This document shows, piece by piece, positions 4,240 to 56,382 of a stretch of DNA of 64,000 nt. The notes beneath the pieces are model-generated. The model searched no databases. It was not told where the DNA came from and saw only the letters and a program-made list of their open reading frames with translations. The first letter of the stretch is position 1, and each line of letters opens with the position of its first letter. Source of the DNA: Thalassovita litoralis (GTDB lineage: Bacteria; Pseudomonadota; Alphaproteobacteria; Rhodobacterales; Rhodobacteraceae); NCBI RefSeq assembly GCF_900182725.1, contig NZ_FXTO01000012.1:1-64000 (forward strand). Reading direction: 5' to 3'. A program made the position numbers and the translations under genes.

Positions 4240-5628
4240 TCAGGCGTGGATTGCGCCGTCACCACAGGCAAGTGCGGCTTCGCGCACGGCTTCGCTGAAC
4301 GTGGGGTGGGCGTGGCAGGTCAGGGCCACATCCTGCGCCGAGGCACCGAATTCCATCGCCACACAGATTTCGTGGATCAGATCCCCGGCACCCGGCCCGA
4401 TGATGTGGCAGCCCAGAACGCGGTCGGTTTCCTTGTCCGCCAGCAGTTTCACGAAACCTTCACCTTGGAACACGGCCTTGGCGCGGGCGTTGCCCATGAA
4501 GGGGAATTTCCCAACCTTGTAGGCGCGGCCTTCTTCTTTCAGTTGCTCTTCGGTTTTACCAACCGATGCGACCTCGGGGGCGGTGTAGATCACGCCGGGG
4601 ATCACATCGTAATTGACGTGACCGTGTTTGCCCGCGATGACTTCGGCGGCGGCCATGCCTTCGTCTTCGGCCTTGTGGGCCAGCATCGGGCCGTCGATGG
4701 CGTCACCGATGGCGTAGATGCCCGGCACGTTGGTTTGCCAATGTGCGTTGGTTTTGATCTGACCGCGCGGCGACAGTTCCACACCCAAGGCCTCCAGCCC
4801 CAGACCGGCGGTATAGGGGCGGCGGCCCGTGGCGACCAGAACGGTATCGGCGTCCAGCGTGTGTTCGCTGTCATCCTTGCGCAGCTTATAGGTGACGGTG
4901 GCCTTGGTTTTGGTGGCGTCAACCTTTTGCACGGCGGCCCCCATCACAAAATCCAGCCCTTGTTTTTTCAGCATCCGCTGGAAATTCTTCTGGATTTCGC
5001 CATCCATGCCGGGGGTGATTTTATCAAGGAATTCGACAACGGTCACGTCCGCGCCAAGCCGTTTGTAGACCGATCCCAATTCCAGACCGATCACACCAGC
5101 GCCGATCACGACCAGCTTTTTCGGGATCTTCGGCAGTTCCAACGCGCCGGTCGAGCTGACCACGACTTTATCGTCGATCTCCACGCCCGGCAGGGTCGAG
5201 GGTTCCGAGCCGGTTGCGATGATGATGTTCTTGGCGTCATAGGTGGTGTCGCCCACTTGCACCTTACCTGCCGCCGGGATCGAACCGTAGCCTTTGATCC
5301 AGTCGACCTTGTTCTTTTTGAACAGGAATTCGATGCCGGTGGTGTTGCCTTTGATCACGTCGTCCTTGTAGGCCAGCATCTGTTTCCAGTCGACCTTGGG
5401 CGCGGCGCCCTTCAGGCCCATCGTGGCAAAGTTATGCTCGGCTTCGTGCAATTGATGGCTGGCATGTAGCAGCGCCTTCGAGGGGATGCAGCCCACGTTC
5501 AGGCAGGTGCCGCCCAGCGTTTCACGGCCTTCGACGCAGGCCGTTTTCAGGCCAAGCTGGGCGCAGCGGATGGCTGCGACATAGCCGCCGGGGCCTGCGC
5601 CGATTACGATCACGTCATATTGTGCCAT
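4240..5628 (-). CDS. lpd: Dihydrolipoyl dehydrogenase (E3)
   Basis: A 462-residue flavoprotein that reoxidises dihydrolipoyl groups with NAD+, the E3 component of the 2-oxoglutarate dehydrogenase complex encoded upstream. The FAD-binding [10 protein letters not shown] is at 10-19. The redox-active disulfide is [13 protein letters not shown] with Cys42 and Cys47. The NAD-binding motif [13 protein letters not shown] lies near 174-186. The C-terminal HAHPTFSE carries the catalytic His-Glu pair. The length is that of the family. It is the last gene of a minus-strand series after sucC, sucD, sucA, sucB and a glycosyltransferase, so it probably serves mainly the 2-oxoglutarate complex. Confidence 0.96.
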
Positions 5629-5739: not shown

Positions 5740-6732
5740 TCATGAGTGGGTCTTTCCATAGGTTAGTGCGGCGCGGTGGTCTGGTGTCAGCAGGGTGGCG
5801 CGGGTGGTCGTCAGCCAGTCCTGACAGGCGCGTTCTGCGGCGGTGATGGCGGGGGCGCTGCGCAGGGCGGTCAGGCGGGATTGGGTGGCGGGCCAATGGC
5901 GTAGGATGGCGGTGTCTTCGACATCGTTGCGATTGGCCATTCGGTGCCATTTCGATCCAAGATGGTATTTGCTATCCCCGGTCTTACCCTGCCCGTCGCC
6001 GCGATCGTTTTTCATCAGGAACAAATCCTGCGATTTGACGGCATAGTGGTTCAACCGGGCGCGTTTGGCGCGACAGGCCACGTCATGCGGGCGGAAGCGC
6101 GAGGATTTGCGTTGGTAAAGGCTGCTGTTGGAGAGCGCTTCGCCATCGGGGGACAGCACGCGCGGATCATCCACCAGCGGGTCCAGTGGGTTATGATCGG
6201 TGGCGCGGCCAAAGCTGGCGATCTGAAACAGGCATTTGAATTTGGTCACGCCTTCGGTGGGGGCGGACTCGGCGTGGGTGAAGTGGGGCAGGATACTGTC
6301 GCCCGGCGTCCAGTCCGTCAGGCCGCTGTCGCCGAACAGCCGCCACGGGATCGGGATAACATCTGCGGGGGGCAAATCTGCCAGAAGGTCCGTGATCTGG
6401 CCATTGCCATGATCGACCAGCAGGAATTCATCGCTGTCGATATGCAGCGCCCATGTGATCTGGTTTGCGCGCATCCATGTCAGTGCCAAATCCATGCCCG
6501 CATCCTGCGGCGCGGTGCCGGGTGGGACAGAGTGGCGGATATGGGTGATGTGACCGTCGGCCTCTAACGCATCCAGCAGGGTATCGGACCCGTCGGTGCA
6601 ATCATTGGATACGATTATGATGGCATCGAAGCCAAGGCCCTGATGATAAGCCACCCATTCCAGCAGAAACACACCTTCGTTCCTCATGCAGGAGACGAGG
6701 GCGGTTTTGGTGAAGGGGGCGGGTTCAGTCAT
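5740..6732 (-). CDS. Glycosyltransferase, family 2-like
   Basis: A 330-residue cytosolic glycosyltransferase. It opens with ALVSCMRNEGVFLLEWVAYHQGLG, typical of the GT2-like group (PF13704 type) in which RNE precedes LxEWxxYHxxLG. The metal-binding DxD-like motif is HIDSDEFLL, and NDCTDGS binds the nucleotide-sugar diphosphate region. No membrane segment is seen. The start chosen is the internal Met (MTEPAP) at 6732; a 13-residue longer reading lacks support. It sits between sucB and lpd on the same strand, an unexpected place for a surface-polysaccharide gene. Donor and acceptor sugars are unknown. Confidence 0.8.
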   Translation of the reverse strand: MTEPAPFTKTALVSCMRNEGVFLLEWVAYHQGLGFDAIIIVSNDCTDGSDTLLDALEADGHITHIRHSVPPGTAPQDAGMDLALTWMRANQITWALHIDSDEFLLVDHGNGQITDLLADLPPADVIPIPWRLFGDSGLTDWTPGDSILPHFTHAESAPTEGVTKFKCLFQIASFGRATDHNPLDPLVDDPRVLSPDGEALSNSSLYQRKSSRFRPHDVACRAKRARLNHYAVKSQDLFLMKNDRGDGQGKTGDSKYHLGSKWHRMANRNDVEDTAILRHWPATQSRLTALRSAPAITAAERACQDWLTTTRATLLTPDHRAALTYGKTHS

Positions 6733-6789
6733 CGTGGGGCGGGGTGTTGGCACGCACCCCACGCGGGGCAAGGTGCGTGCCGGTTTTCA

Positions 6790-8283
6790 TTACAGGTCCA
6801 TCAGCAGGCGGCGGGGATCTTCCAGTGCTTCTTTGACGCGCACAAGGAAGGTCACGGCACCTTTGCCGTCGACGATGCGGTGATCGTAGGATAGGGCCAG
6901 ATACATCATCGGGCGGATTTTGATCTCGCCGTTGATGACCATCGGACGGTCCTGAATCTTGTGCATACCCAGAATACCGGATTGCGGGGGGTTCAGGATC
7001 GGCGAGGACATCAGCGAGCCATAGACACCACCGTTGGAGATGGTGAAGGAACCGCCCTGCATTTCGGCCATCGACAGTTTGCCATCACGGGCGCGGCGAC
7101 CTTTTTCGGCGATTTCCTTTTCGATCTCGGCAAAGGATTTCTGATCGGCGTCACGGATGACCGGCACAACCAGACCCTGCGGGGTGCCAGCCGCGATGCC
7201 CATGTGGACATAGTTTTTGTACACGACATCGGTGCCGTCGATTTCGGCGTTCACCTCGGGGACTTCTTTCAGGGCGTGGCAGCACGCCTTGGTGAAGAAG
7301 GACATGAAGCCCAGACGCGCGCCATGTTTCTTTTCAAACAGGTCTTTGTATTCCTTGCGCAGGTCCATACAGGCCGTCATGTCCACCTCGTTATAGGTGG
7401 TCAGCATGGCGGCTGTGTTCTGGGCCTCTTTCAGGCGGCGGGCGATGGTCTGACGCAGGCGGGTCATTTTCACGCGCTCTTCGCGGGCGGCATCATCTGC
7501 GGCAACCGGCGCGCGCGGGGCGGCGGCGGGGGCGGCAGGGGCCGATGCGGCTGCGGCGACAGCGCGGGCGACGTCGTCTTTCATAACACGGCCATCGCGG
7601 CCAGTGCCGGTGACGGCATCGCGGCTGATCCCGGCTTCGGCCATTGCTTTTTTGGCCGACGGGGCGTCCTCGACATCCTTGCCACCTGCGGCGGCTGCCG
7701 GGGCAGGGGCCGCAGCAGTCGGGGCGGCGGCCACAACGGCACCAGAGGCTGCGATTACGGCCAGTTTGGCCGAAGCGTCGACGGTGGTGCCTTCGGGGGC
7801 GGTGATTTCAGCCAGAACGCCAGCGGCGGGGGCCGGAACCTCGACCGATACTTTGTCGGTTTCCAGTTCGCACAGCATTTCGTCCTGCGCGACGGCATCG
7901 CCAACCTTTTTGAACCATGTCGAAACGGTGGCTTCGGTCACGGATTCACCAAGGGCGGGAACCATCACATCGACGCTGTCATTGCCCGAGGCCGCCGGGG
8001 CGGCGGCTTCGGTTTTGGCGGCGGGAGCCGCAGCCACGGCTGCGCCGCTTTCAGCGATCATCGCCAGCAGGGCATCGACGCCCACGGTTTCACCTTCGGC
8101 GGCGACGATTTCGGCCAGAACGCCAGCCGCAGGGGCGGGAACTTCGACGGTGACCTTATCGGTTTCCAGTTCGCACAGCATTTCATCGGCTGCGACGGCA
8201 TCACCGGGTTTTTTGAACCAGGTGGCGACGGTGGCTTCGGTCACGGATTCGCCAAGGGTGGGGACGCGTACTTCGGTCGTCAT
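6790..8283 (-). CDS. sucB: 2-oxoglutarate dehydrogenase E2 (dihydrolipoyl succinyltransferase), two lipoyl domains
   Basis: A 497-residue core enzyme that transfers the succinyl group to CoA. Two lipoyl domains are present in tandem, each with the ELETDK motif (lipoyl Lys43 and Lys144), joined by Ala/Pro-rich linkers. A peripheral-subunit binding domain follows (about 205-240), then the acyltransferase domain with the catalytic DHRIVDG motif near the C-terminus. Many bacterial SucB proteins have one lipoyl domain; two are, as I recall, common in Rhodobacterales. The start is 3 bp after the sucA stop codon, so the pair is translationally linked. Confidence 0.96.
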
Positions 8284-8286
8284 GGG

Positions 8287-11253
8287 TTATTTCCCTTCGA
8301 TGGTCAGCGCTTCGTCCACGAGCGCCTGTTGTTGTGCTTTGTGCTGGCTGGCCAGACCCGTCGCGGGCGAGGCCGATGCGGCGCGACCGGCATAGACCGG
8401 GCGCGTGTGTTTGGCTTCGATACGGGTCAGAACCCATTCGATATTCGGTTCGATAAAGGACCACGCGCCCTGATTTTTCGGCTCTTCCTGACACCAGTAC
8501 ATTTCAGCGTTTTTGAAACGCTCCAGTTCCTTGGTCAGCGTCATGGCTGGGAACGGGTAGAACTGTTCGATCCGCATCAGGTAAATGTCGTCGATCCCGC
8601 GGGCATCGCGTTCTTCCAGCAGGTCATAATAGACCTTGCCGGAACACATGACGACGCGCTTGATCTTGTCATCGGCCACCAGTTTCGTATCCGAATGGCC
8701 CTTTTCGGCATCATCCCACAGCACGCGGTGGAACGACGAACCGGGCAGGAAATCCTCGGCGTCGGAAATGGCCATCTTGTGACGCAGCAACGATTTCGGC
8801 GTCATCAGGATCAGCGGCTTGCGGTAGGTGCGGTGCAACTGACGGCGCAGGATGTGGAAATAGTTGGCGGGCGTAGTGCAGTTCGCCACGATCCAGTTAT
8901 CCCCACCGCACATCGTCAGGAAACGTTCCAGACGCGCGGACGAGTGTTCCGGCCCCTGACCTTCGTAGCCATGCGGCAGCAGGACCGTCAGGCCCGACAT
9001 CCGCAACCATTTGGATTCACCCGACGAAATGAACTGATCGAACATGATCTGGGCGCCGTTGGCGAAATCGCCAAACTGGGCTTCCCACAGGACCAGCGCG
9101 TTCGGTTCGGCCAGCGAATAGCCGTATTCAAAGCCCAGAACCGCATATTCGGACAGCATCGAGTCGATGACCTCGTAGCGGGCCTGACCTTCGCGGATGT
9201 TGTTCAGCGGGTAATAGCGTTCTTCGGTGTTCTGGTTGACCAGCCCCGAATGCCGCTGAGAGAAGGTGCCGCGTGTCGAGTCCTGACCGGCCAGACGGAC
9301 CGGGTATCCTTCGCTCAGAAGCGAGCCGAACGCCAGCGCTTCGCCGGTGGCCCAGTCAAAGCCGGTGCCAGTTTCAAACATTTGCTGTTTGGATTCCAGC
9401 AGACGCGAAACGGTTTTATGCAGCGGGAACCCTTCGGGAACGCGGGTCAGCGCCGTGCCGACCTGCTGCATAGTTTCTTCGGAAATGGCGGTTTGGCCGC
9501 GCTGGTAATTCCCGTCTTTCTGTTTATCCAGATGCGACCAGCGCCCATCCAGCCAGTCGGCCTTGTTGGGTTTATAGTCTTTCCCGGCCTCGAACTCTTC
9601 GTTCAGGTGGGCCTGGAAGGCGGCTTTCATGTCTTCGATTTCGCCTTCGGGGATCAGGCCGTCCTGAACCAGACGATCCGTGTACAGCGACAGGGTGGTT
9701 TTGTGACCCTTGATATTTTTGTACATGATCGGGTTGGTGAACATCGGCTCATCGCCTTCGTTGTGACCGAAGCGGCGATAGCAGAAGATGTCGATAACCA
9801 CGTCCTTGTGGAACTTCATGCGGAATTCGGTGGCAACCTTGGCGGCGTGAACCACGGCTTCGGGATCGTCGCCGTTGACGTGGAAAATCGGGGCTTCCAC
9901 CATCAGCGCGATATCCGTCGGATAGGGCGAGCTGCGCGAGAAATGCGGCGCAGTGGTAAAGCCGATCTGGTTGTTCACAACGATATGGATGGTGCCGCCG
10001 GTGCGGTGGCCGCGAATGCCCGAAAGCTGGAAACATTCAGCCACAACGCCCTGACCGGCAAAAGCCGCATCGCCGTGCAACAGAACCGGGATCACGGTAT
10101 GGCGATCCGGATCGTGCATCTGATCGGTTTTGGCGCGGCATTTACCCAGAACAACAGGGTTCACCGCTTCAAGGTGCGAGGGGTTGGCGGTCAGCGACAG
10201 GTGAACCTTGTTGCCGTCAAATTCGCGGTCTGACGACGCGCCAAGGTGGTATTTCACGTCACCCGAGCCATCCACGTCTTCGGGTTTGAAGCTGCCGCCC
10301 TGAAATTCGTTGAAAATCGCGCGATAGGGTTTGGACAGCACATTGGCCAGCACGCTGAGGCGGCCCCGGTGCGGCATCCCGATCACGACTTCTTTGGCGC
10401 CCAGATTGCCGCCGCGTTTGATGATCTGTTCCATTGCGGGGATCAGTGCTTCGCCACCGTCCAGACCAAAGCGTTTGGTTCCCATGTATTTCACATGCAG
10501 GAACTTCTCAAAACCTTCGGCTTCGACCAGCTTGTTCAGGATGGCCTTGCGGCCTTCGCGGGTAAAGGCGATTTCTTTGCCGAAGCCTTCGATCCGCTCT
10601 TTCAGCCAGCCTGCTTCTTCGGGGTCGGAAATGTGCATGTATTGCAGCGCGAACGTGCCGCAATAGGTGCGTTTCACGATGTCCATGATCTGACGCATCG
10701 AGGCAACCTGAAGCCCCAGCACGTTGTCGATGAAGATCGGGCGATCCATGTCGGAATCCGCGAACCCATAGGATTTCGGATCCAGTTCGGGGTGCGGGGT
10801 GTGGTCCCGCATGTTCAGCGGGTCGATGTCCGCGATCAGGTGGCCCCGGATACGGTAGGCGCGGATGATCATCAGGGCGCGGACGGAATCCAGAACGGCG
10901 CGTTTCACCTGTTCGTCGCTGATAGATACACCTTTTTCGGCGGCTTTTTCCTTGATCTTCTGACCGGCGCTTTTGGCTTCGGCAGGGGCGGCGGGCCATT
11001 GCCCGTCCAGCGCGGCAGTCAGGTCATCGGATGGCACGGGCGGCCAGTCGGTCCGCGCCCAAGAGGGGCCTTCGGCCTCTTTTTTCACGTCCAGTTCTGC
11101 ATCGCCAAGCTGGCTGAAGAATTCGGCCCATGCGGCATCTACCGCGTTGGGGTCGTTGGCCCAGCGGGCGTAAAGCTGTTCCAGATATTCGGCGTTATGC
11201 CCCTGCATGAAGCTGGAGGCATGGAACATGTCGTTTGGGCTCTGGTCGTTCAT
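8287..11253 (-). CDS. sucA: 2-oxoglutarate dehydrogenase E1
   Basis: A 988-residue thiamine-diphosphate enzyme that decarboxylates 2-oxoglutarate and succinylates the lipoyl group of SucB in the TCA cycle. The N-terminal SSFMQGHNAEYLEQLYARW segment is the E2-binding region of the family. The GMPHRGRLSVLANVL motif near 290, the GDAAFAGQG motif near 395 with the following NNQIGFTT, and the GYEGQGPEHSSARLERFL motif near 765 are classic. The length is normal. The start ATG is preceded by a 320-bp gap to sucD, so sucA may also have its own promoter. Confidence 0.97.
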   Translation of the reverse strand: MNDQSPNDMFHASSFMQGHNAEYLEQLYARWANDPNAVDAAWAEFFSQLGDAELDVKKEAEGPSWARTDWPPVPSDDLTAALDGQWPAAPAEAKSAGQKIKEKAAEKGVSISDEQVKRAVLDSVRALMIIRAYRIRGHLIADIDPLNMRDHTPHPELDPKSYGFADSDMDRPIFIDNVLGLQVASMRQIMDIVKRTYCGTFALQYMHISDPEEAGWLKERIEGFGKEIAFTREGRKAILNKLVEAEGFEKFLHVKYMGTKRFGLDGGEALIPAMEQIIKRGGNLGAKEVVIGMPHRGRLSVLANVLSKPYRAIFNEFQGGSFKPEDVDGSGDVKYHLGASSDREFDGNKVHLSLTANPSHLEAVNPVVLGKCRAKTDQMHDPDRHTVIPVLLHGDAAFAGQGVVAECFQLSGIRGHRTGGTIHIVVNNQIGFTTAPHFSRSSPYPTDIALMVEAPIFHVNGDDPEAVVHAAKVATEFRMKFHKDVVIDIFCYRRFGHNEGDEPMFTNPIMYKNIKGHKTTLSLYTDRLVQDGLIPEGEIEDMKAAFQAHLNEEFEAGKDYKPNKADWLDGRWSHLDKQKDGNYQRGQTAISEETMQQVGTALTRVPEGFPLHKTVSRLLESKQQMFETGTGFDWATGEALAFGSLLSEGYPVRLAGQDSTRGTFSQRHSGLVNQNTEERYYPLNNIREGQARYEVIDSMLSEYAVLGFEYGYSLAEPNALVLWEAQFGDFANGAQIMFDQFISSGESKWLRMSGLTVLLPHGYEGQGPEHSSARLERFLTMCGGDNWIVANCTTPANYFHILRRQLHRTYRKPLILMTPKSLLRHKMAISDAEDFLPGSSFHRVLWDDAEKGHSDTKLVADDKIKRVVMCSGKVYYDLLEERDARGIDDIYLMRIEQFYPFPAMTLTKELERFKNAEMYWCQEEPKNQGAWSFIEPNIEWVLTRIEAKHTRPVYAGRAASASPATGLASQHKAQQQALVDEALTIEGK

Positions 11254-11573: not shown

Positions 11574-12461
11574 TTAGCCTTTGGCGATGGCGGCCTGAAC
11601 GGCCTCGCCCAGAGTTGCGGGGCTGTCGGCAACCACGATACCAGCCGATTTCATGGCTTCGATTTTGGATTCCGCGTCACCCTTACCACCGGCGACGATG
11701 GCGCCAGCGTGACCCATGCGGCGGCCCGGAGGGGCGGTGCGGCCTGCGATGAAACCGGCAACCGGCTTCCAACGGCCTTTTTTCTTCTGTTCGGCCAGGA
11801 ATTCAGCGGCTTCTTCTTCTGCGGAGCCACCGATTTCACCGATCATGATGATCGACTGAGTTTCCGGGTCATTCAGGAACATGTCCAGCACGTCGATATG
11901 TTCGGTGCCTTTGATCGGGTCGCCGCCGATGCCAACAGCCGAGGACTGGCCCAGACCGATGTCCGAGGTTTGTTTCACAGCTTCGTAGGTCAGCGTACCG
12001 GAACGCGACACAACACCGACCGAGCCACGCTTGTGGATGTGGCCGGGCATGATGCCGATTTTGCAGGCGTCCGGGGTGATCACGCCGGGGCAGTTCGGGC
12101 CGATCAGGCGCGATTTGCTGTCGATCAGCGCGCGCTTGACCTTCATCATGTCCAGAACCGGGATGCCTTCGGTGATGCAGACAATCAGTTCCATTTCCGC
12201 GTCGATCGCTTCAAGGATCGAGTCAGCCGCGAAGGGCGGGGGAACGTAGATCACGGTGGCGTTGGCTTCGGTCACGTGTTTTGCTTCGTGGACCGAGTTG
12301 AACACTGGCAGATTCAGGTGGCTGGTGCCGCCTTTGCCGGGGGTCACGCCGCCAACCATTTTGGTGCCGTAGGCAATCGCCTGTTCCGAGTGGAAAGTAC
12401 CCTGAGAGCCGGTGAAGCCCTGACAGATGACTTTGGTGTTTTCGTCGATGAGGACTGCCAT
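11574..12461 (-). CDS. sucD: Succinyl-CoA synthetase, alpha subunit
   Basis: A 295-residue ADP-forming succinate--CoA ligase alpha subunit. The N-terminal CoA-binding segment [17 protein letters not shown] and the C-terminal [13 protein letters not shown], whose histidine carries the phosphate, are both present. [10 protein letters not shown] is the family signature. The length is normal. The start lies 4 bp after the sucC stop, as expected for subunits made in equal amounts. Confidence 0.97.
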
Positions 12462-12465
12462 TTTC

Positions 12466-13659
12466 TTATCCTTTCACCGCTTTCACGATCTTTTCAGCGC
12501 CATCCGACAGGTTGTCAGCAGCGATGACGTTCAGGCCCGAGGTGTTGATGATCTCTTTGCCTGCGTCGACATTGGTGCCTTCAAGGCGAACAACCAGCGG
12601 AACTTGCAGGCCGACCTCTTTCACGGCGGCGACAACGCCTTCAGCGATGACGTCACAGCGCATGATGCCGCCAAAGATGTTCACCAGAATGCCTTTGACG
12701 TTCGGGTCCGAGGTGATGATCTTGAACGCTTCGGTCACTTTTTCCTTGGTGGCGCCACCGCCAACGTCCAGGAAGTTGGCCGGTTCCGCGCCGTACAGTT
12801 TGATGATGTCCATGGTGGCCATCGCCAGACCTGCACCGTTCACCATGCAGCCGATTTCACCGTCCAGAGCGATGTAGTTCAGGTCGTATTTCGACGCTGC
12901 CAGCTCTTTGGGGTCTTCTTCGGTTTCGTCGCGCAGGTTTGCAACATCGGGGTGGCGATAGATGGCGTTGCCGTCAAAACCCAGCTTGGCGTCCAGCAGT
13001 TTCAGGTTGCCATCGGGCATGACGATCAGCGGGTTGATTTCCAGCATTTCCATGTCCTTCTCGACGAAGGCACGGTACAGGTTGGCCAGCAGGGCAACGC
13101 ACTGTTTTACCTGACCGCCGGTCAGACCCAGCGCGAATGCAACACGACGGCCGTGATAGGGCATGTAGCCCGTGGCCGGATCAATGGTAAAGGACAGGAT
13201 TTTTTCCGGGGTCGACGCTGCGACTTCTTCGATGTCCATGCCGCCTTCGGTCGAGGCCACGATGGAAATGCGCGAGGTCTGACGATCCACCAGGAAGGCC
13301 AGATACAGTTCGCGTTCAATGTCCGAACCGGCTTCGATGTAGATGCGGTTCACCTGTTTGCCAGCCGGGCCGGTCTGGTGGGTGACAAGGGTCTTGCCCA
13401 GCATCTTTTTGGCTTCTTCGGCAGCTTCTTCGACCGATTTGGCCAGACGCACGCCGCCTTTTTCACCGGCTTCGGCTTCTTTGAATTTGCCTTTGCCGCG
13501 ACCGCCTGCGTGAATTTGGGCTTTTACGACCCACAGCGGGCCGTCCAGCTCGCCTGCGGCGGTTTTGGCGTCTTCGGCCTTCAGGACGGCGCGTCCTTCA
13601 GAAACCGGGGCGCCGTATTCGCGAAGGAGTGCTTTCGCCTGATACTCATGAATGTTCAT
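12466..13659 (-). CDS. sucC: Succinyl-CoA synthetase, beta subunit
   Basis: A 397-residue ATP-grasp subunit that binds nucleotide and succinate. The N-terminal [19 protein letters not shown], the [10 protein letters not shown] phosphate-binding segment (about 47-56) and the [14 protein letters not shown] block are diagnostic. First gene of a minus-strand series sucC-sucD-sucA-sucB-GT-lpd. Its upstream region carries the paired TGTGATCACA palindromes about 110-140 bp before the start codon, the likely control point of the series. Confidence 0.97.
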
Positions 13660-13767
13660 GAAAACTGTCCCGTCTTGCTACGATTGTTGGACGGAATGCC
13701 ACAGGCGCGGCAATTGTTTAAACGTTTTTTTGTTGGCAGGCGGGTTTTTGCGAATATTTCTGCGATT

Positions 13768-13798
13768 TGTGATCACACGTCGAAAAGCTGTGATCACA
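13768..13798. promoter_or_regulatory. Paired palindromes TGTGATCACA upstream of sucC
   Basis: Two perfect 10-bp palindromes TGTGATCACA lie at 13768-13777 and 13789-13798. Their centres are 21 bp apart, two helical turns, so a dimeric regulator could bind both on the same DNA face. Flanking bases extend the outer sides to TTTGTGATCACA and TGTGATCACAAA. An almost identical pair with the same spacing precedes sdhC. The regulator is not encoded nearby; a GntR/FadR-type or LacI-type protein is a guess. Confidence 0.75.
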
Positions 13799-13885: not shown

Positions 13886-15762
<1,877 letters not shown>

Positions 15763-18695: not shown

Positions 18696-18726
18696 TGTGA
18701 TCACGCTGGTAAATTGTGTGATCACA
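18696..18726. promoter_or_regulatory. Paired palindromes TGTGATCACR upstream of sdhC
   Basis: TGTGATCACG (18696-18705) and TGTGATCACA (18717-18726) have centres 21 bp apart, exactly the spacing of the pair upstream of sucC. They lie about 120-150 bp before the sdhC start. The rest of 18584-18847 shows no gene; it is the presumed sdh promoter region. Confidence 0.75.
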
Positions 18727-18847
18727 ACATTGCGGTTTCCTGACGTTTCCGTGAAAATTGATGCTGCAACAGCATCCGTTCCGCGTGACAAAAGCGAAAA
18801 AAAGTTTCATAACGCGGGCAAGCAAGGGAACCTTGAAAGGATCAGAT

Positions 18848-19231
18848 ATGGCCGATGTGAAACGGGTCGAGCGCCCTCTTTCGCCGCATCTTCAAATCTA
18901 CCGCCCCCAGCTCACCTCGTTCACTTCCATTATGACGCGGATCACCGGGAACGCCCTGATCGTTTCCGCGTTGCTGGTGGTGTGGTGGCTTCTGGCGGCT
19001 GCAACCAGCGCGGAATATTACGCCATTGCAAACGGGGTTCTGACCTCGTGGTTTGGTGACATCGTGTTCACCCTGTCGGCGTTGGGCGTGTGGTATCACT
19101 ATCTGGCTGGTCTGCGTCACCTGTATTTTGATGCGGGCAAAGGTCTGGATGTTCCCACCGCTGAGAAACTGGGCTGGGCCTGTGTTATCGGTTCGGTCGT
19201 GCTGACCGTTCTGACCATCGTGATCGTGTAA
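18848..19231 (+). CDS. sdhC: Succinate dehydrogenase cytochrome b556 subunit
   Basis: A 127-residue membrane anchor of complex II with three hydrophobic helices. The family opening RPLSPHLQIYRPQLTSFTSI is followed by TRITG where many homologues have HRITG. The second helix ends WYHYLAGLRHL, which supplies the heme-ligand histidine region. The ATG at 18848 was chosen because it matches the family N-terminus and follows GAAAGGATC. It heads sdhC-sdhD-sdhA, two sulfotransferase genes and sdhB. Confidence 0.94.
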   Translation: MADVKRVERPLSPHLQIYRPQLTSFTSIMTRITGNALIVSALLVVWWLLAAATSAEYYAIANGVLTSWFGDIVFTLSALGVWYHYLAGLRHLYFDAGKGLDVPTAEKLGWACVIGSVVLTVLTIVIV

Positions 19232-19242
19232 GGAGGCCGACA

Positions 19243-19614
19243 ATGCGTTACCTGACCGCACGCAAACGCGCCGAAGGCAAAGGTGCAGCCCATACCGGGA
19301 CTGAACACCACTGGTACATGACCGTCAGCGCTGTTGGGCTGGCGTTCCTGATCCCGGCGTTCGTTTATATTTTCGGTTCTGCCCTTGGCGGCAGCTATGA
19401 GGAAGTGATCGCCACCTTCTCGCGCCCGGTGCCTGCCATCCTGACCGCGATGACGCTGGTTCTGGGGATGCGCCATTTCGCCAAAGGCGCGCAAATGATG
19501 ATCGAAGACTACGCGCAGGGAACGGCCCGCAAGCTGGCCATTATGGTCGTGATCGGCCTGTCCTATGTTTTGATTGCCGTGGGCCTGTTCGCCCTGGCCA
19601 AGATCGCGCTGTAA
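19243..19614 (+). CDS. sdhD: Succinate dehydrogenase hydrophobic anchor subunit
   Basis: A 123-residue three-helix membrane subunit of complex [13 protein letters not shown] precedes the first helix, and [19 protein letters not shown] holds the heme-side histidine and the Asp-Tyr pair near the quinone site seen in SdhD proteins. It starts 11 bp after sdhC with an AGGAGG ribosome binding site. Confidence 0.93.
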
Positions 19615-19627
19615 GGAAGTAAGAAAA

Positions 19628-21433
19628 ATGGCAGCTTACGAATACGAAGTTCACGAATACGACGTGGTCGTGGTGGGGGCTGGCGGCGCTGGTCTGCGGG
19701 CAACGCTGGGCATGGCCGAGCAAGGTTTGCGTACCGCGTGCGTGACCAAGGTTTTCCCGACCCGTTCCCACACCGTTGCAGCGCAGGGCGGTATCGCCGC
19801 GTCGCTGTCCAACATGGGGCCGGACAACTGGCAATGGCACATGTTCGACACCGTAAAAGGGTCGGACTGGCTGGGCGACACTGACGCGATGGAATATCTG
19901 GCGCGTGAAGCCCCCAAGGCCGTGTACGAGCTGGAACACTACGGTGTGCCGTTCAGCCGTACCGAAGAAGGCAAGATTTACCAGCGTCCGTTCGGGGGCC
20001 ACACCACCGAATTCGGTGACGGCCCGCCCGTGCAGCGCACCTGCGCCGCGGCTGACCGGACCGGCCACGCCATCCTGCACACGCTGTATGGTCAATCGCT
20101 GAAAAACAACGCCGAATTCTATATCGAATATTTCGCCATTGATCTGGTCATGTCGGATGATGGTCAGTGTCAGGGCGTTGTTTGCTGGAAGTTGGACGAC
20201 GGTACGTTCCATGTCTTCAATGCAAAAATGGTTGTGCTGGCGACCGGCGGGTATGGCCGCGCCTATTTCAGCGCAACGTCGGCACACACCTGCACCGGCG
20301 ACGGTGGCGGCATGGTTGCCCGCGCTGGTCTGGCGTTGCAGGACATGGAATTCGTGCAGTTCCACCCGACCGGGATTTACGGTTCGGGCTGTCTGATCAC
20401 CGAAGGCGCGCGCGGCGAAGGTGGCTACCTGACCAACAGCGAAGGCGAGCGTTTCATGGAGCGCTATGCGCCCCAGTACAAAGACCTTGCCCCGCGTGAC
20501 TATGTGTCCCGTTCGATGACCATGGAAATCCGCGAGGGTCGTGGCGTTGGCGAACATGGCGATCACATTCACCTGAACCTGTCGCACCTGCCGCCCGAAG
20601 CACTGGCCGAACGCCTGCCCGGTATTTCGGAAAGCGCGAAGATTTTTGCCGGTGTCGACGTGACCAAGGAACCGATCCCGGTTCTGCCGACCGTTCACTA
20701 TAACATGGGCGGTATCCCGACAAACTATTGGGGCGAGGTGCTGAACCCGACCGCCGAGAACCCGACCGGCGTCGTTCCGGGCCTGATGGCCGTGGGCGAA
20801 GCTGGCTGTGCCTCGGTTCATGGGGCGAACCGCTTGGGGTCGAACTCTTTGATCGACCTTGTGGTGTTCGGCCGTGCCGCTGCCATTCGCGCCGGTAAGG
20901 TTGTAAACCCCGATGCGCCGAACCCGGTTCTGAACCAGGCGTCGGTGGACAAGGCATTCGATCGTTTCGACAGCCTGCGCAATGCCAAGGGCGGTATCGC
21001 CACCGCAGACCTGCGGCTGGAAATGCAGCGCACGATGCAGGCCGATGCGGCGGTGTTCCGTACCGACAAATCGCTGGCCGAAGGCGTTGAAAAGATGACC
21101 GCCATTGCTGCGAAGCTGGGTGATCTGCATGTGACAGACCGTTCGCTGGTCTGGAACAGCGATCTGATGGAAACGTTGGAACTGACCAACCTGATGCCGA
21201 ACGCGCTGGCCACCATCGTTGGGGCCGAAGCACGCAAGGAAAGCCGTGGCGCACACGCGATGGAGGATCACACCTCGCGCGATGACGAAAACTGGCGGGT
21301 GCATACCGTCAGCCGCGTCGAAGGCAACAAGGTGGACCTGTCCTATCGTCCGGTCATCGTTGACCCGCTGACCACAGAAGCCGAAGGCGGCATCAGCCTG
21401 AAGAAGATCGCGCCGAAAGCGCGGACGTTCTAA
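19628..21433 (+). CDS. sdhA: Succinate dehydrogenase flavoprotein subunit
   Basis: A 601-residue FAD subunit that oxidises succinate to fumarate. The dinucleotide-binding GAGGAGLRA is at 17-25. [15 protein letters not shown] carries His48, the expected site of covalent FAD. The [21 protein letters not shown] segment, the [10 protein letters not shown] motif and the [19 protein letters not shown] motif are all present. It starts 13 bp after sdhD behind AAGGAAGTAAG. It is unusual only in what follows: two sulfotransferase-type genes before sdhB. Confidence 0.97.
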
Positions 21434-21439
21434 GGCATC

Positions 21440-22264
21440 ATGGCGATGGCGTCGGCCATAAGCCCGGCATCTGGCGCAGCTTTTGCGCCGCGGATCATCT
21501 GGCATTTCGGTTTTCAGAAAACCGGAACCACCGCGGTGCAATGGTTGTTGCGCAAGAACCGGGTGCTGCTGGGCGAAAAAATCGCCCTGTTTCCGCGTGG
21601 CCGCTGGACGGCGGCCCTGCGGGAGGCCGCCGCCGTTTTCCTGCGCACCCGGTCCGAGGCGGATAAAACCGCCTTTCAGGACGAGGTGCGCAAGATTGTA
21701 AATACAGTGCGGGACAGTGGCCATAGCTGCGCCATTGTCTCGGACGAAAATGTGCTGGGGTTGAAGCTGCGGGATGAGACGGGGGATATTTTCACCCATG
21801 CCCGCACCATGCTGCCCGTGGTCGAAGACGCCGCTGCCCCGGCCATTTGCGAATTCCATTTTAACACCCGCGATCCCGAAGCGTGGCTGAAAAGCGCCCA
21901 TAACCAAGAGGTCAAGCAGTTGCGCTGCCGTCAGGACTTTGACGAATGGTGCAATGGTGTTGCTTTGCCCGTGGACTGGTCTGCGCTGCACGATACGCTG
22001 TCTGGCCTGACCCAAGGGGCGGTGGTGTTCCGCGACATGAATGCTGACCGCGCGGCGGGGCGGCCCAGTGGGGCTGCACTGCTGGAAACGGCAGGGGTGG
22101 GGCCGGAACTGCTGGCGCAGTTGAAAACGCCGGGTGCGCAGAACGAAAGCCTGTCTGACGCGGCTTTGGCCTTTATGTTGGACATCAACCGCAGCCCGCT
22201 GAAACGCCGCCAGATCGGGGCCGTGCGGGATGTGGTGGTAAAGAATATGGGGCTGTTCAAATGA
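21440..22264 (+). CDS. Sulfotransferase-like P-loop protein
   Basis: A 274-residue cytosolic protein. IIWHFGFQKTGTTAVQWLL (about residues 19-37) is a PAPS-type 5'-phosphosulfate loop (HxGxxKTGTTxxQ), followed further on by SDENVLG, where bacterial sulfotransferase-like proteins bind the 3'-phosphate. The rest is not similar to a family I can name. It starts 6 bp after sdhA and its stop overlaps the next start (ATGA), so it is translated as part of the sdh mRNA. Real sulfotransferase activity is not proven by the loop alone; the acceptor is unknown. Confidence 0.7.
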   Translation: MAMASAISPASGAAFAPRIIWHFGFQKTGTTAVQWLLRKNRVLLGEKIALFPRGRWTAALREAAAVFLRTRSEADKTAFQDEVRKIVNTVRDSGHSCAIVSDENVLGLKLRDETGDIFTHARTMLPVVEDAAAPAICEFHFNTRDPEAWLKSAHNQEVKQLRCRQDFDEWCNGVALPVDWSALHDTLSGLTQGAVVFRDMNADRAAGRPSGAALLETAGVGPELLAQLKTPGAQNESLSDAALAFMLDINRSPLKRRQIGAVRDVVVKNMGLFK

Positions 22265-23064
22265 CCGCCCTTGCCCAGAATATCACCCCCGTGGCACCGC
22301 GTATCCTGTGCGTGGGAACGCATCACAAAACCGGCACGATCTGGATGCAGCAGGTGTTCAAGGCGCTGTCAGCCGCGTTGGACGTGCCGAAGCTGTCGAT
22401 GTGGAAACGCGCAGTCAAACGCCTGCCTGCCGAAGGGCGCGTGCTGGGGACGAACTGGGATTCAGCCTTCCCCACGGAATTGATGGCGCGTGAGGACGTG
22501 CTGTTCCTGCATATCATCCGCGATCCGCGGGATGTGTTACTGTCCGGTGCGCGGTATCACGAAACGGCCCCCGCCTCGAAAGAGGATTGGCTGCACGAAG
22601 CGCGGGATGATTTCGGCGGGCTGACGTATCAGCAAAAACTGCTGTCCATTTCCGACCCGCAGGACCGCCTGCTGTTCGAGATGGACCATAAACACGCCGA
22701 TACCCTGCGCCAGATGCTAAGCTGGAATTACACCCGCCCGGACTGCATCGAATGGCGTTACGAGGATTTGATTGCCGATACGGAATGTCAGATGTTCCGG
22801 GCCGCACTGGTCCGGTTCGGTCTGACCCCGGATCAGGTGGACAAAGGCGTTCGCGCCTTTTGGGACAATTCGCTGTTCGGTGGCATGGCCGATCCGAACA
22901 GCCGAAAAACCGTGGTGGCGGGGCATGTCGCCTCGGGCGCGGCGCGGCAGTGGCCGGGTAAGTTGCCAGTGGCTGTGGCGCGCGCCTATCTGGATCGCTT
23001 CGGCGATGACCTTATCACCCTTGGATACGAAAAAGACAGGAACTGGCTGGACAGGCTGCACTAA
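22261..23064 (+). CDS. Sulfotransferase domain protein
   Basis: A 267-residue protein. CVGTHHKTGTIWMQQVFKA is the 5'-phosphosulfate loop and VLFLHIIRDPRDVLLSGARYH the 3'-phosphate motif with RDPRD and the downstream serine, both standard for PAPS-dependent sulfotransferases. WRYEDLIAD and the C-terminal WPGKLP are also typical. It overlaps the preceding gene by 4 bp and is followed 33 bp later by sdhB. The acceptor may be a surface glycan or small metabolite; the sequence does not say. Confidence 0.85.
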   Translation: MTALAQNITPVAPRILCVGTHHKTGTIWMQQVFKALSAALDVPKLSMWKRAVKRLPAEGRVLGTNWDSAFPTELMAREDVLFLHIIRDPRDVLLSGARYHETAPASKEDWLHEARDDFGGLTYQQKLLSISDPQDRLLFEMDHKHADTLRQMLSWNYTRPDCIEWRYEDLIADTECQMFRAALVRFGLTPDQVDKGVRAFWDNSLFGGMADPNSRKTVVAGHVASGAARQWPGKLPVAVARAYLDRFGDDLITLGYEKDRNWLDRLH

Positions 23065-23097: not shown

Positions 23098-23877
23098 ATG
23101 GTACAATTCACCCTACCGAAAAATTCCAAGATCAAGACCGGCAAGACGTGGCCCAAGCCGGAAGGCGCGACCAACGTGCGCAAATTCCAGATCTATCGCT
23201 GGAGCCCGGACGAAAACGAAAACCCGCGTGTCGATACCTATTTCGTGGATATGGACAAATGCGGGCCGATGGTTCTGGACGCGCTGATCAAGATCAAGAA
23301 CGAGATCGACCCCACCCTGACCTTCCGCCGGTCCTGCCGCGAAGGGATTTGTGGGTCTTGCGCGATGAACATCGACGGGATCAACACGCTGGCCTGTATC
23401 TATGGCATGGATGAAATCAAGGGCGATGTGAAAATCTATCCGCTGCCCCACATGCCGGTGGTCAAAGACCTGATCCCCGACCTGACCCATTTCTATGCGC
23501 AGCACGCCAGCATCATGCCGTGGCTGGAAACCAAAACCAACCGCCCCGCGAAAGAGTGGAAGCAGTCGATCGAGGATCGTAAGAAACTGGACGGTCTGTA
23601 TGAATGCGTGATGTGCGCGTCTTGCTCGACCTCGTGCCCCAGCTATTGGTGGAACGGTGATCGGTATCTTGGCCCGGCCGCGCTGCTGCATGCCTATCGC
23701 TGGATCATCGACAGCCGTGATGAAGCCACGGGCGAACGTTTGGACAATCTGGAAGACCCGTTCAAACTGTATCGTTGCCACACAATCATGAACTGCGCCA
23801 AAACCTGCCCCAAAGGGTTGAACCCGGCCAAGGCGATTGCAGAAATCAAGCGGATGATGATCAACCGCGCGGTTTGA
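23098..23877 (+). CDS. sdhB: Succinate dehydrogenase iron-sulfur subunit
   Basis: A 259-residue subunit carrying three clusters. [15 protein letters not shown] binds the 2Fe-2S cluster. [16 protein letters not shown] and [21 protein letters not shown] bind the 4Fe-4S and 3Fe-4S clusters. Electrons pass from SdhA FAD to quinone. GAAAGGTAAG precedes the ATG. It is the last gene of the operon, ended by the terminator at 23898-23924. Confidence 0.97.
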
Positions 23878-54726: not shown

Positions 54727-56382
54727 GTGGCCAAGATCATCGACTTTCAGACGGACCCCTCTGAATACCGCCACTGGCGGGTGGACTATAATGGCGATGT
54801 CGCCAATCTGATCATGGATGTGGATGAAAATGGCGGCCTGTTTGATGGCTACCAGTTGAAGCTGAATTCCTATGATCTGGGTGTCGATATCGAGCTGGCC
54901 GACATTGTGCAGCGGATGCGGTTTGAACACCCCGAGGTGAAAGTCGTGGTCATGCAATCCGGCAAGGACAAGGTGTTCTGTGCCGGGGCGAATATCCGTA
55001 TGCTGGGTGGGGCCGAACATGCGCATAAGGTGAATTTTTGTAAATTCACCAATGAAACCCGCAATACGTTCGAGGCAGCGGAAAAGGATTCAGGCCAGAA
55101 ATATGTGGCTGCGGTCAAAGGGGCCTGCGCCGGGGGCGGATACGAGCTGGCGCTGGCGTGTAATCACATCATCCTGACCGACGACAGCAACAGTGCCGTG
55201 GCCCTGCCCGAGGTGCCGCTGCTGGCCGTTCTGCCCGGTACTGGCGGTCTGACCCGCGTCACGGACAAGCGGAAAGTGCGCCGCGATCTAGCTGATGTGT
55301 TCTGCGCGATGGAAGAAGGCGTGCGCGGTAAGCGGGCGCAGGACTGGAATTTGGTGGACGAAGTCGTGCCGAATTCAAAGTTTGACGCCACGGTGGCCGA
55401 ACGGGCCAAGGAATTCGCTGCCGCCACCCCATCGAAAGCCGCAAAGGGGATCACGCTGAACGCATTGAAGCGCGATATTGCGGAAGACGCCGTTCACTAT
55501 TCGCTGGTCGAGGTCGCGCTGGACCGCGCGGGGCGCAAGGTGACGATTACGCTGAATGGCCCGGATGGGGATGTTCCGGCGTCGGTTGATGATCTGGTGG
55601 CGCAAGGCGATCAATCCTATCTGCTGCGTCTGGCGCGGGAACTGGATGATGCGATCCTGCACCTGCGCAACAATGAAAAGGATCTGGGCCTGTGGGTCAT
55701 TCGCACGCAGGGCGATGCCGAAGCTGTGCTGGCGCACGAGGCGCTGCTGTTGGCGAACAAGGATCACTGGCTGGCCAATGAAATCCTGCAATATTGGAAG
55801 CGGGTGCTGAAGCGGGTGGATGTGACCTCGCGGTCCTTGGTGGCGCTGGTCGAACATGGGTCGTGTTTCGCGGGCGTTCTGGCCGAACTGCTGTGGGCCG
55901 TGGACCGCACCTATATGATGGAAGACGAATTCGAGGGTGATAACCGCCCGATGGCGCAGATCACCCTGTCCGAGGCGAATTTCGGCACCTACCCGATGGG
56001 CAATGATTTGACCCGTCTGGAAACCCGGTTTCTGGGTGCGCCCGAACAGGTGACGGATCTGAAATCCCATATCGGTGAGCAGATCGAGGCCGAGCGGGCT
56101 GAGGACCTGGGGCTTGTGACCTATATTCTGGATGACATCGACTGGGACGATGAAATCCGCATCTTCATGGAAGAACGCGCCAGCTTTAGCCCTGATGCAA
56201 TGACCGGGATGGAGGCAAACCTGCGCTTTGCCGGGCCGGAAACGATGGAAACCCGCATCTTTGGCCGCCTGACGGCATGGCAGAACTGGATTTTCCAGCG
56301 CCCGAATGCGGTGGGGCCGGATGGGGCCTTGCAGCGCTACGGCACCGGGGTGCGCGGCGATTACAACATGCAGCGCGTTTAA
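54727..56382 (+). CDS. boxC: Benzoyl-CoA-dihydrodiol lyase (2,3-epoxybenzoyl-CoA dihydrolase)
   Basis: A 551-residue crotonase-superfamily protein that opens the ring of 2,3-epoxybenzoyl-CoA with two water molecules, giving dehydroadipyl-CoA semialdehyde and formate. It opens FQTDPSEYRHWRVDYNGDVANL. The crotonase oxyanion hole is in FCAGANIRMLGG and VKGACAGGGYELALACN. The C-terminal half (from ARELDDAILHLRNNEKDLGLWV) is the second domain unique to BoxC. The start codon is GTG, chosen because GAGGAG precedes it. Candidate BoxR sites lie upstream. Confidence 0.95.
   Translation: MAKIIDFQTDPSEYRHWRVDYNGDVANLIMDVDENGGLFDGYQLKLNSYDLGVDIELADIVQRMRFEHPEVKVVVMQSGKDKVFCAGANIRMLGGAEHAHKVNFCKFTNETRNTFEAAEKDSGQKYVAAVKGACAGGGYELALACNHIILTDDSNSAVALPEVPLLAVLPGTGGLTRVTDKRKVRRDLADVFCAMEEGVRGKRAQDWNLVDEVVPNSKFDATVAERAKEFAAATPSKAAKGITLNALKRDIAEDAVHYSLVEVALDRAGRKVTITLNGPDGDVPASVDDLVAQGDQSYLLRLARELDDAILHLRNNEKDLGLWVIRTQGDAEAVLAHEALLLANKDHWLANEILQYWKRVLKRVDVTSRSLVALVEHGSCFAGVLAELLWAVDRTYMMEDEFEGDNRPMAQITLSEANFGTYPMGNDLTRLETRFLGAPEQVTDLKSHIGEQIEAERAEDLGLVTYILDDIDWDDEIRIFMEERASFSPDAMTGMEANLRFAGPETMETRIFGRLTAWQNWIFQRPNAVGPDGALQRYGTGVRGDYNMQRV

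Follow-up and report, generated by a model that had tools for sequence, protein, structure and literature searches.

For Rhodobacter sphaeroides, the portion of PMC4344238 available to us describes the GntR family protein RSP_0981 as the predicted regulator of RSP_0967-6, RSP_0974-6 and RSP_0965-62, and assigns to CceR the predicted motif [A/G/T]GTT-N6-8-AAC. In the part of PMC6365646 that we could consult, GTGATCAC is among the binding sites of AkgR, which is termed there a transcriptional activator. The three tag ranges correspond to the suc and sdh genes (sucCD, sucAB-lpd and sdh). RSP_0981 is presumably AkgR itself.

We analyzed a 64-kb stretch of the Thalassovita litoralis genome (hereafter, the window), in which both suc and sdh operons are headed by a pair of short palindromes (Table 1). 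The original prediction of two perfect palindromes 21 bp apart before sucC is borne out, as both copies match TGTGATCACA exactly and are separated by an 11-bp spacer. The nearly identical twin proposed to precede sdhC with equal spacing is also present, one of its copies having a single mismatch. The core motif GTGATCAC is found in all four sites. The order of the minus-strand genes agrees with the suggestion that the suc twin heads a sucCDAB-glycosyltransferase-lpd series, to which we add the mdh ORF (13886-15028) encoded just upstream on the same strand, so that the suc twin has mdh on one side and sucC on the other. The start of mdh is likely nearer to 14848, because the family match begins only at residue 61. 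In relatives, sdhC homologues precede sdhA according to tblastn searches, for which the sdhC query extended nine bases past the stop codon; this should not affect the matches. Between sdhA and sdhB there is a sulfotransferase-like ORF (22261-23064; weak PF00685 match just below the cut-off), and the sdhA-sdhB gap varies widely among the corresponding regions of 20 relatives. A serine recombinase (resolvase) ORF is located near the window start, at 733-1308.

Table 1. Operator copies, genes and putative promoter elements of the suc and sdh operons in the window.
Feature	Position	Strand	Remarks
suc operator, copy nearer sucC	13768..13777		exact TGTGATCACA
suc operator, copy farther from sucC	13789..13798		exact TGTGATCACA
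sdh operator, distal copy	18696..18705		TGTGATCACG, 1 mismatch to TGTGATCACA
sdh operator, proximal copy	18717..18726		exact TGTGATCACA
sucC	12466..13659	-	first gene after suc twin
sucD	11574..12461	-	
sucA	8287..11253	-	
sucB	6790..8283	-	
glycosyltransferase-2-like ORF	5740..6771	-	PF13704; between sucB and lpd in suc series
lpd-type ORF (pyridine nucleotide-disulphide oxidoreductase)	4240..5628	-	
sdhC	18848..19231	+	first gene after sdh twin; predicted start, ~18848
sdhA	19574..21433	+	coordinates of listed ORF; actual start possibly internal
sdhB	23098..23877	+	2Fe-2S and 4Fe-4S domains
putative -35 of sdhC, GTGACA	18785..18790	+	59 bp past proximal site; from conservation
putative -10 of sdhC, CATAAC	18808..18813	+	17-bp spacer; 16 bp commonest in relatives
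putative -35-like element of sucC, TTTAAA	13716..13721	-	weak
putative -10-like element of sucC, CATTCC	13692..13697	-	weak

Matches to a single palindrome are only moderately enriched: allowing one mismatch, TGTGATCACA has five matches in the 64-kb window versus 1.62 expected, a number reached by one of 100 shuffles, and one of the one-mismatch matches (TGTAATCACA at 55159) lies inside an ORF. The spaced pair is far less likely to arise by chance. When up to three mismatches were allowed in its 20 fixed bases, the twin occurred at two places only, suc and sdh, in the genome of 4,112,158 bases, and the reversed control twin had no matches in the same whole-genome scan, which upholds the earlier view that chance recurrence of both sequence and spacing is very unlikely. 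Six exact single copies of TGTGATCACA are present in the whole genome: the twins account for three, a fourth precedes a GntR gene on contig C6, and the remaining two are inside ORFs for a low-molecular-weight phosphatase and an HlyD-type protein (both named by eye). The latter two were set aside as chance matches; the one in the apparent phosphatase frame is at L273:1501-1510.

To see how far the twins extend, we searched 295 genomes representing 294 genera of the Rhodobacter/Roseobacter family. The 21-bp twin (up to two mismatches) is present in 250 of them, and control matches were found in none; 63 of the 250 have exactly one such twin, and most others have two. A twin with 20-bp spacing was detected in 49 of the 295 genomes (control match in one genome, G229), including 15 of the 45 that lack the 21-bp form, so that either spacing is found in 265 of the 295. 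Two more of the 45 (G058 and G291) have relaxed 21-bp twins. Among these 45 genomes, GTGATCAC-N13-GTGATCAC with up to two mismatches proved too noisy a pattern in the matches listed, except in G058. Exactly one 21-bp twin is also present in 33 of the 49 genomes with a 20-bp twin, which would fit one operon per spacing. Conservation in close relatives, on which the original prediction had been made to depend, is thus extensive, with twins recurring before suc and sdh. Its description of the spacing as exactly two helical turns holds for the 21 bp at both operons of the window, but is slightly too strict for the family, as relatives also use 20 bp.

The positions of the twins relative to genes were assessed in two sets of loci. 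In 20 regions taken from twin carriers, the 21-bp twin precedes both sucC and sdhC, the sdh twin being relaxed in one of them (L075). The other set was blind to the motif and consisted of 80 named loci found via mdh, the best 80 of 592 relatives. Within these best 80 of 592, a pair is found before sucC in all 75 loci that hold this gene (72 at 21 bp and three at 20 bp) and before sdhC, at 20 or 21 bp, in 55 of 61; three of the remaining six sdhC promoters have one site and three have none. The same 80 loci have no pair before mdh (0/80). Five loci without sucC and 19 without sdhC were left out of the respective counts. Unusual sdhC spacings of 33, 34, 52, 57 and 57 bp were rejected, since a relaxed 21-bp pair is also present in those loci (L191, L193, L242, L251 and L259). 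The titles of two records in this set, Nocardioides marinus DP1N28-1 (L188) and Maritalea mobilis DP3N28-3 (L207), look mislabelled; the mdh genes and twin promoters that they carry are those of the Rhodobacter/Roseobacter family.

All five family members in a draw of 385 genomes from across the class have two exact-core twins. Among the 380 genomes from outside the family, two have one core match each, and control matches were seen in another genome (G367). Of the two outside matches, one is in coding DNA; the other (L260) is located before a GntR gene whose product is 29% identical to AkgR. At L260 (G440), around 970-1022, a third palindrome-like site at an interval of about 21 bp was noticed by eye, and a similar row of three is seen in L007 (G197), around 1501-1552.

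The genome of Thalassovita litoralis has 26 GntR-domain matches. When a locus of about 3 kb around each was inspected, an exact site in front of the gene was seen in one case only (L053); in L049 and L050, sites with one mismatch occur at other places in the locus. The L053 protein consists of 215 residues with GntR (PF00392) and FCD (PF07729) domains and is encoded outside the window, at G000:C6:138950-139594; within the locus the site occupies 1441-1450 and the start codon is at 1459. In all 30 best-scoring orthologue loci (L109-L138, that of the same genome included) an exact GTGATCAC core is found near the gene start. In three further orthologue loci, the site precedes the gene in G229 and in the divergent G033, and is absent in Cereibacter sphaeroides.

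The regulator and the twins co-occur. With orthologues defined by E<=1e-70 (a cut chosen after viewing the table, with up to ten candidates scored per genome), an orthologue is present in 258 of 265 twin carriers and absent in 23 of 30 non-carriers (Fisher p=3e-22, not corrected for relatedness). Four of the seven carriers lacking an orthologue at this cut (G019, G033, G096, G114, G256, G264 and G273) are less than 80% complete; G033 encodes a divergent relative with its own site, and G019, G114 and G256 are reasonably complete genomes without a clear orthologue. As for the seven non-carriers with an orthologue, two are G058 and G291 with their relaxed 21-bp twins, and in the other five (G061, G147, G155, G166 and G201) the true sucC promoter is absent or cut in the sequence examined. 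A loss of the twin in 22 genomes with AkgR, considered at one point, proved to be wrong, as 15 of them have the 20-bp spacing. Sequences upstream of sucC in seven genomes without the orthologue lack the site in six cases and hold a single decayed one in the seventh. Profile rescoring was applied to 19 of the 30 genomes in which no orthologue had been assigned. Divergent AkgR-like proteins are encoded in G054 (L280) and G281 (L279), with profile E-values of 5.8e-62 and 1.7e-66, respectively; neither genome has a site before the AkgR-like gene or a twin before sucC, and here site and regulator may have diverged together. That a single regulator serves suc and sdh, as originally proposed, is strongly supported by the recurrence of the twins at both operons and their association with one GntR gene.

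None of the 26 GntR genes was found beside suc or sdh in the regions of 20 relatives, meaning that adjacency is not general, but C. sphaeroides does show it. This species is represented in our sample by G051, in which 3,001 bases of a 105,284-base contig are 100% identical to the 2.4.1 plasmid NZ_CP030275. Its orthologue is 76% identical and is encoded 0.75 kb past sdhB, and its suc and sdh twins both have 21-bp spacing. Taken together, the published tag numbers and the position after sdh indicate that the C. sphaeroides orthologue agrees with RSP_0981. The core motif, the suc and sdh targets, the GntR type and an orthologue in the same genome are all found in Thalassovita litoralis. Judging by the sequence together with the published motif and targets, the candidate regulator that uses the twins is very probably AkgR, a GntR/FCD protein.

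Of the two regulators named in the original prediction, then, AkgR fits and the LacI-type CceR does not, its predicted motif being different: when compared by eye with the motif in the accessible part of PMC4344238, the 10-bp site has neither a GTT nor an AAC half. A site of CRP/FNR type was likewise rejected, as TGTGA and TCACA abut without a spacer. The half sites of CRP are 6 bases apart and those of FNR 4 bases apart.

The DNA around the twins has further regularities. The middle part of the spacer is AT-rich, reaching 88% at suc (33 sequences) and 92% at sdh (24 sequences) in a profile from which one coding-region pair of the window and L007's third site were omitted; three pairs without nearby sucC, sdhC or mdh were also dropped. 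In the best 80 of 592 mdh loci, a -35-like GTGAC follows the proximal site of sdhC promoters at 47-50 bp (5 sequences), 57-60 bp (37), 69-70 bp (5) or 78-79 bp (3). These four classes account for 50 of the 55 promoters in that best-80 sample; of the five left, four show TGAC at the main position, whereas one (L197) has no TGAC in range. All 13 off-main GTGAC positions among the best 80 of 592 loci deviate by no more than 2 bp from whole helical turns (P=1.2e-5 with a uniform null), a value that ignores relatedness and uses a phase of 58.5 and a period of 10.5 set after viewing the data. Rayleigh values barely separate periods from 10 to 11.5 bp, and four of the five best-80 sequences in the 47-50 class come from Paracoccus. 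In a second sample, composed of motif-chosen loci (one duplicate row left out) and scored with the looser word TGAC, 21 of 23 sequences are in phase, L020 and L077 being the misfits.

A -10-like box starting with TA is found 16 bp further on in 27 of the 47 sdhC promoters that have GTGAC at 40-75 in the best 80 of 592 mdh loci. In promoters with a 20-bp twin, GTGAC is shifted away from the proximal site by about 1 bp (8 versus 29 sequences, p=3e-4), so that its distance from the distal site stays nearly the same (p=0.18). For sucC in the best 80 of 592 mdh loci, a TT is conserved at 47-48 bp beyond the proximal site (65 and 61 of 75), and most of the loose TATAC-like boxes are found at 64-72. 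These features suggest that the sucC promoter may follow the sdhC design one turn closer, which is the weaker part of the promoter comparison.

We consider it quite probable that the twins are operators of AkgR, which would bind them as two dimers on the same face of DNA, activate suc and sdh from upstream and limit the expression of its own gene. Each 10-bp palindrome would be occupied by an AkgR homodimer, and the two dimers would lie on one helix face, given the distance of 20 or 21 bp between the centres; their binding is probably cooperative, and the AT-rich spacer may ease bending. The twin centres are upstream of the putative core promoters, near -87/-108 at sucC and near -98/-119 at sdhC, and these predicted positions differ by one turn. 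Such placement, together with the helical phasing at sdhC, points to activation through contact with RNA polymerase rather than to a road block. Through the single site before its start codon, AkgR probably limits its own synthesis. Overall, succinyl-CoA synthetase, 2-oxoglutarate dehydrogenase and succinate dehydrogenase would come under joint control. A more demanding version is put forward tentatively, as we lean slightly against it: AkgR could be a near-dedicated activator of two operons, its dimers held to one fixed face by the 20/21-bp spacing, with the distance at sdhC changing in whole turns (~47, 58, 69 and 79 bp past the proximal site), all of this kept over the divergence of the family. 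If so, these promoters would amount to a series of natural deletions and insertions with which class-I-type activation by a GntR protein could be studied.

Repressors are numerous among GntR/FCD proteins, and AkgR could bind the twins and yet repress, the pair blocking or looping the promoter until a metabolite releases the protein. The single site before akgR adjoins the start codon, which is a repressor position. However, the suc and sdh twins are well upstream of the putative core promoters, the helical phasing towards the -35 element is what contact activation would produce, and the consulted part of PMC6365646 terms AkgR an activator; repression at suc and sdh is therefore unlikely. Nor are the palindromes at all plausible as RNA or terminator structures, or as products of chance. 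Each is an inverted repeat, but a loopless palindrome of 10 bp would give no useful hairpin, the pairs are upstream of the putative promoters, and their presence before sucC in 75 of 75 loci versus 0 of 80 before mdh (best 80 of 592 mdh loci) leaves this reading a negligible probability.

Alternatively, a different regulator with the same motif, either another GntR protein or CceR, might bind the twins while AkgR merely co-varies with them. The genome offers 26 GntR matches to choose from, three reasonably complete twin carriers are without a clear AkgR orthologue, and since AkgR, like the twins, occurs almost throughout the sampled family, part of the correlation reflects shared descent. Against this, the AkgR gene is the only one of the 26 with an exact site in front, and the site is kept in the 30 best-scoring orthologue loci; the GntR protein from outside the family with 29% identity (L260) also has a motif twin upstream. 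The AkgR motif and targets in the accessible parts of PMC6365646 and PMC4344238 agree with our observations, and the CceR motif given in the latter differs. We regard a regulator other than AkgR as very improbable.

AkgR, its targets and the core motif are published for R. sphaeroides. Our literature search, which covered parts of papers other than the primary AkgR report, yielded no mention of sites arranged in pairs, of a 20/21-bp rule or of phasing along the helix. The family-wide spread and the site before akgR were likewise not in the literature searched on AkgR, and the primary paper may contain some of this. Since the biology is mostly known and the paired architecture was not found in print, we view our results as a refinement of the architecture. 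They link the part of the TCA cycle that leads from 2-oxoglutarate to fumarate with one small regulon in a major group of marine and photosynthetic bacteria, and for most of the sampled family they make the regulator and its sites predictable from sequence. In addition, the helical-phase pattern supplies ready and testable natural promoter variants for possible activation by a GntR protein.

The closest described system is the AkgR (RSP_0981) regulon of R. sphaeroides, which, as far as the accessible parts of PMC4344238 and PMC6365646 go, has the same targets and the core GTGATCAC, with an orthologue 76% identical to the protein studied here; it differs in that C. sphaeroides has no site before akgR. 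The part of PMC6365646 at hand also describes PS417_07240 of Pseudomonas simiae, a GntR protein that shares 32% identity with AkgR and whose gene is preceded by GTGATCAC, but this protein regulates a deoxyribonate cluster, a different pathway, and one palindrome is reported there. Several GntR-type dimers on adjacent repeats are known for NanR of E. coli, which, unlike the activator proposed here, is a repressor that binds (GGTATA)3 repeats as three dimers (PMC8012715, consulted in part). The predicted targets of CceR (RSP_1663) in R. sphaeroides also include mdh and sdh, but CceR belongs to the LacI family and has a different motif, according to the portion of PMC4344238 seen. Finally, the nearest solved structure by sequence is that of the GntR-type protein McbR/YncC of E. 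coli (4p9f_A, E-value of 3.9e-19 to the AkgR candidate), which is a distant relative by sequence.
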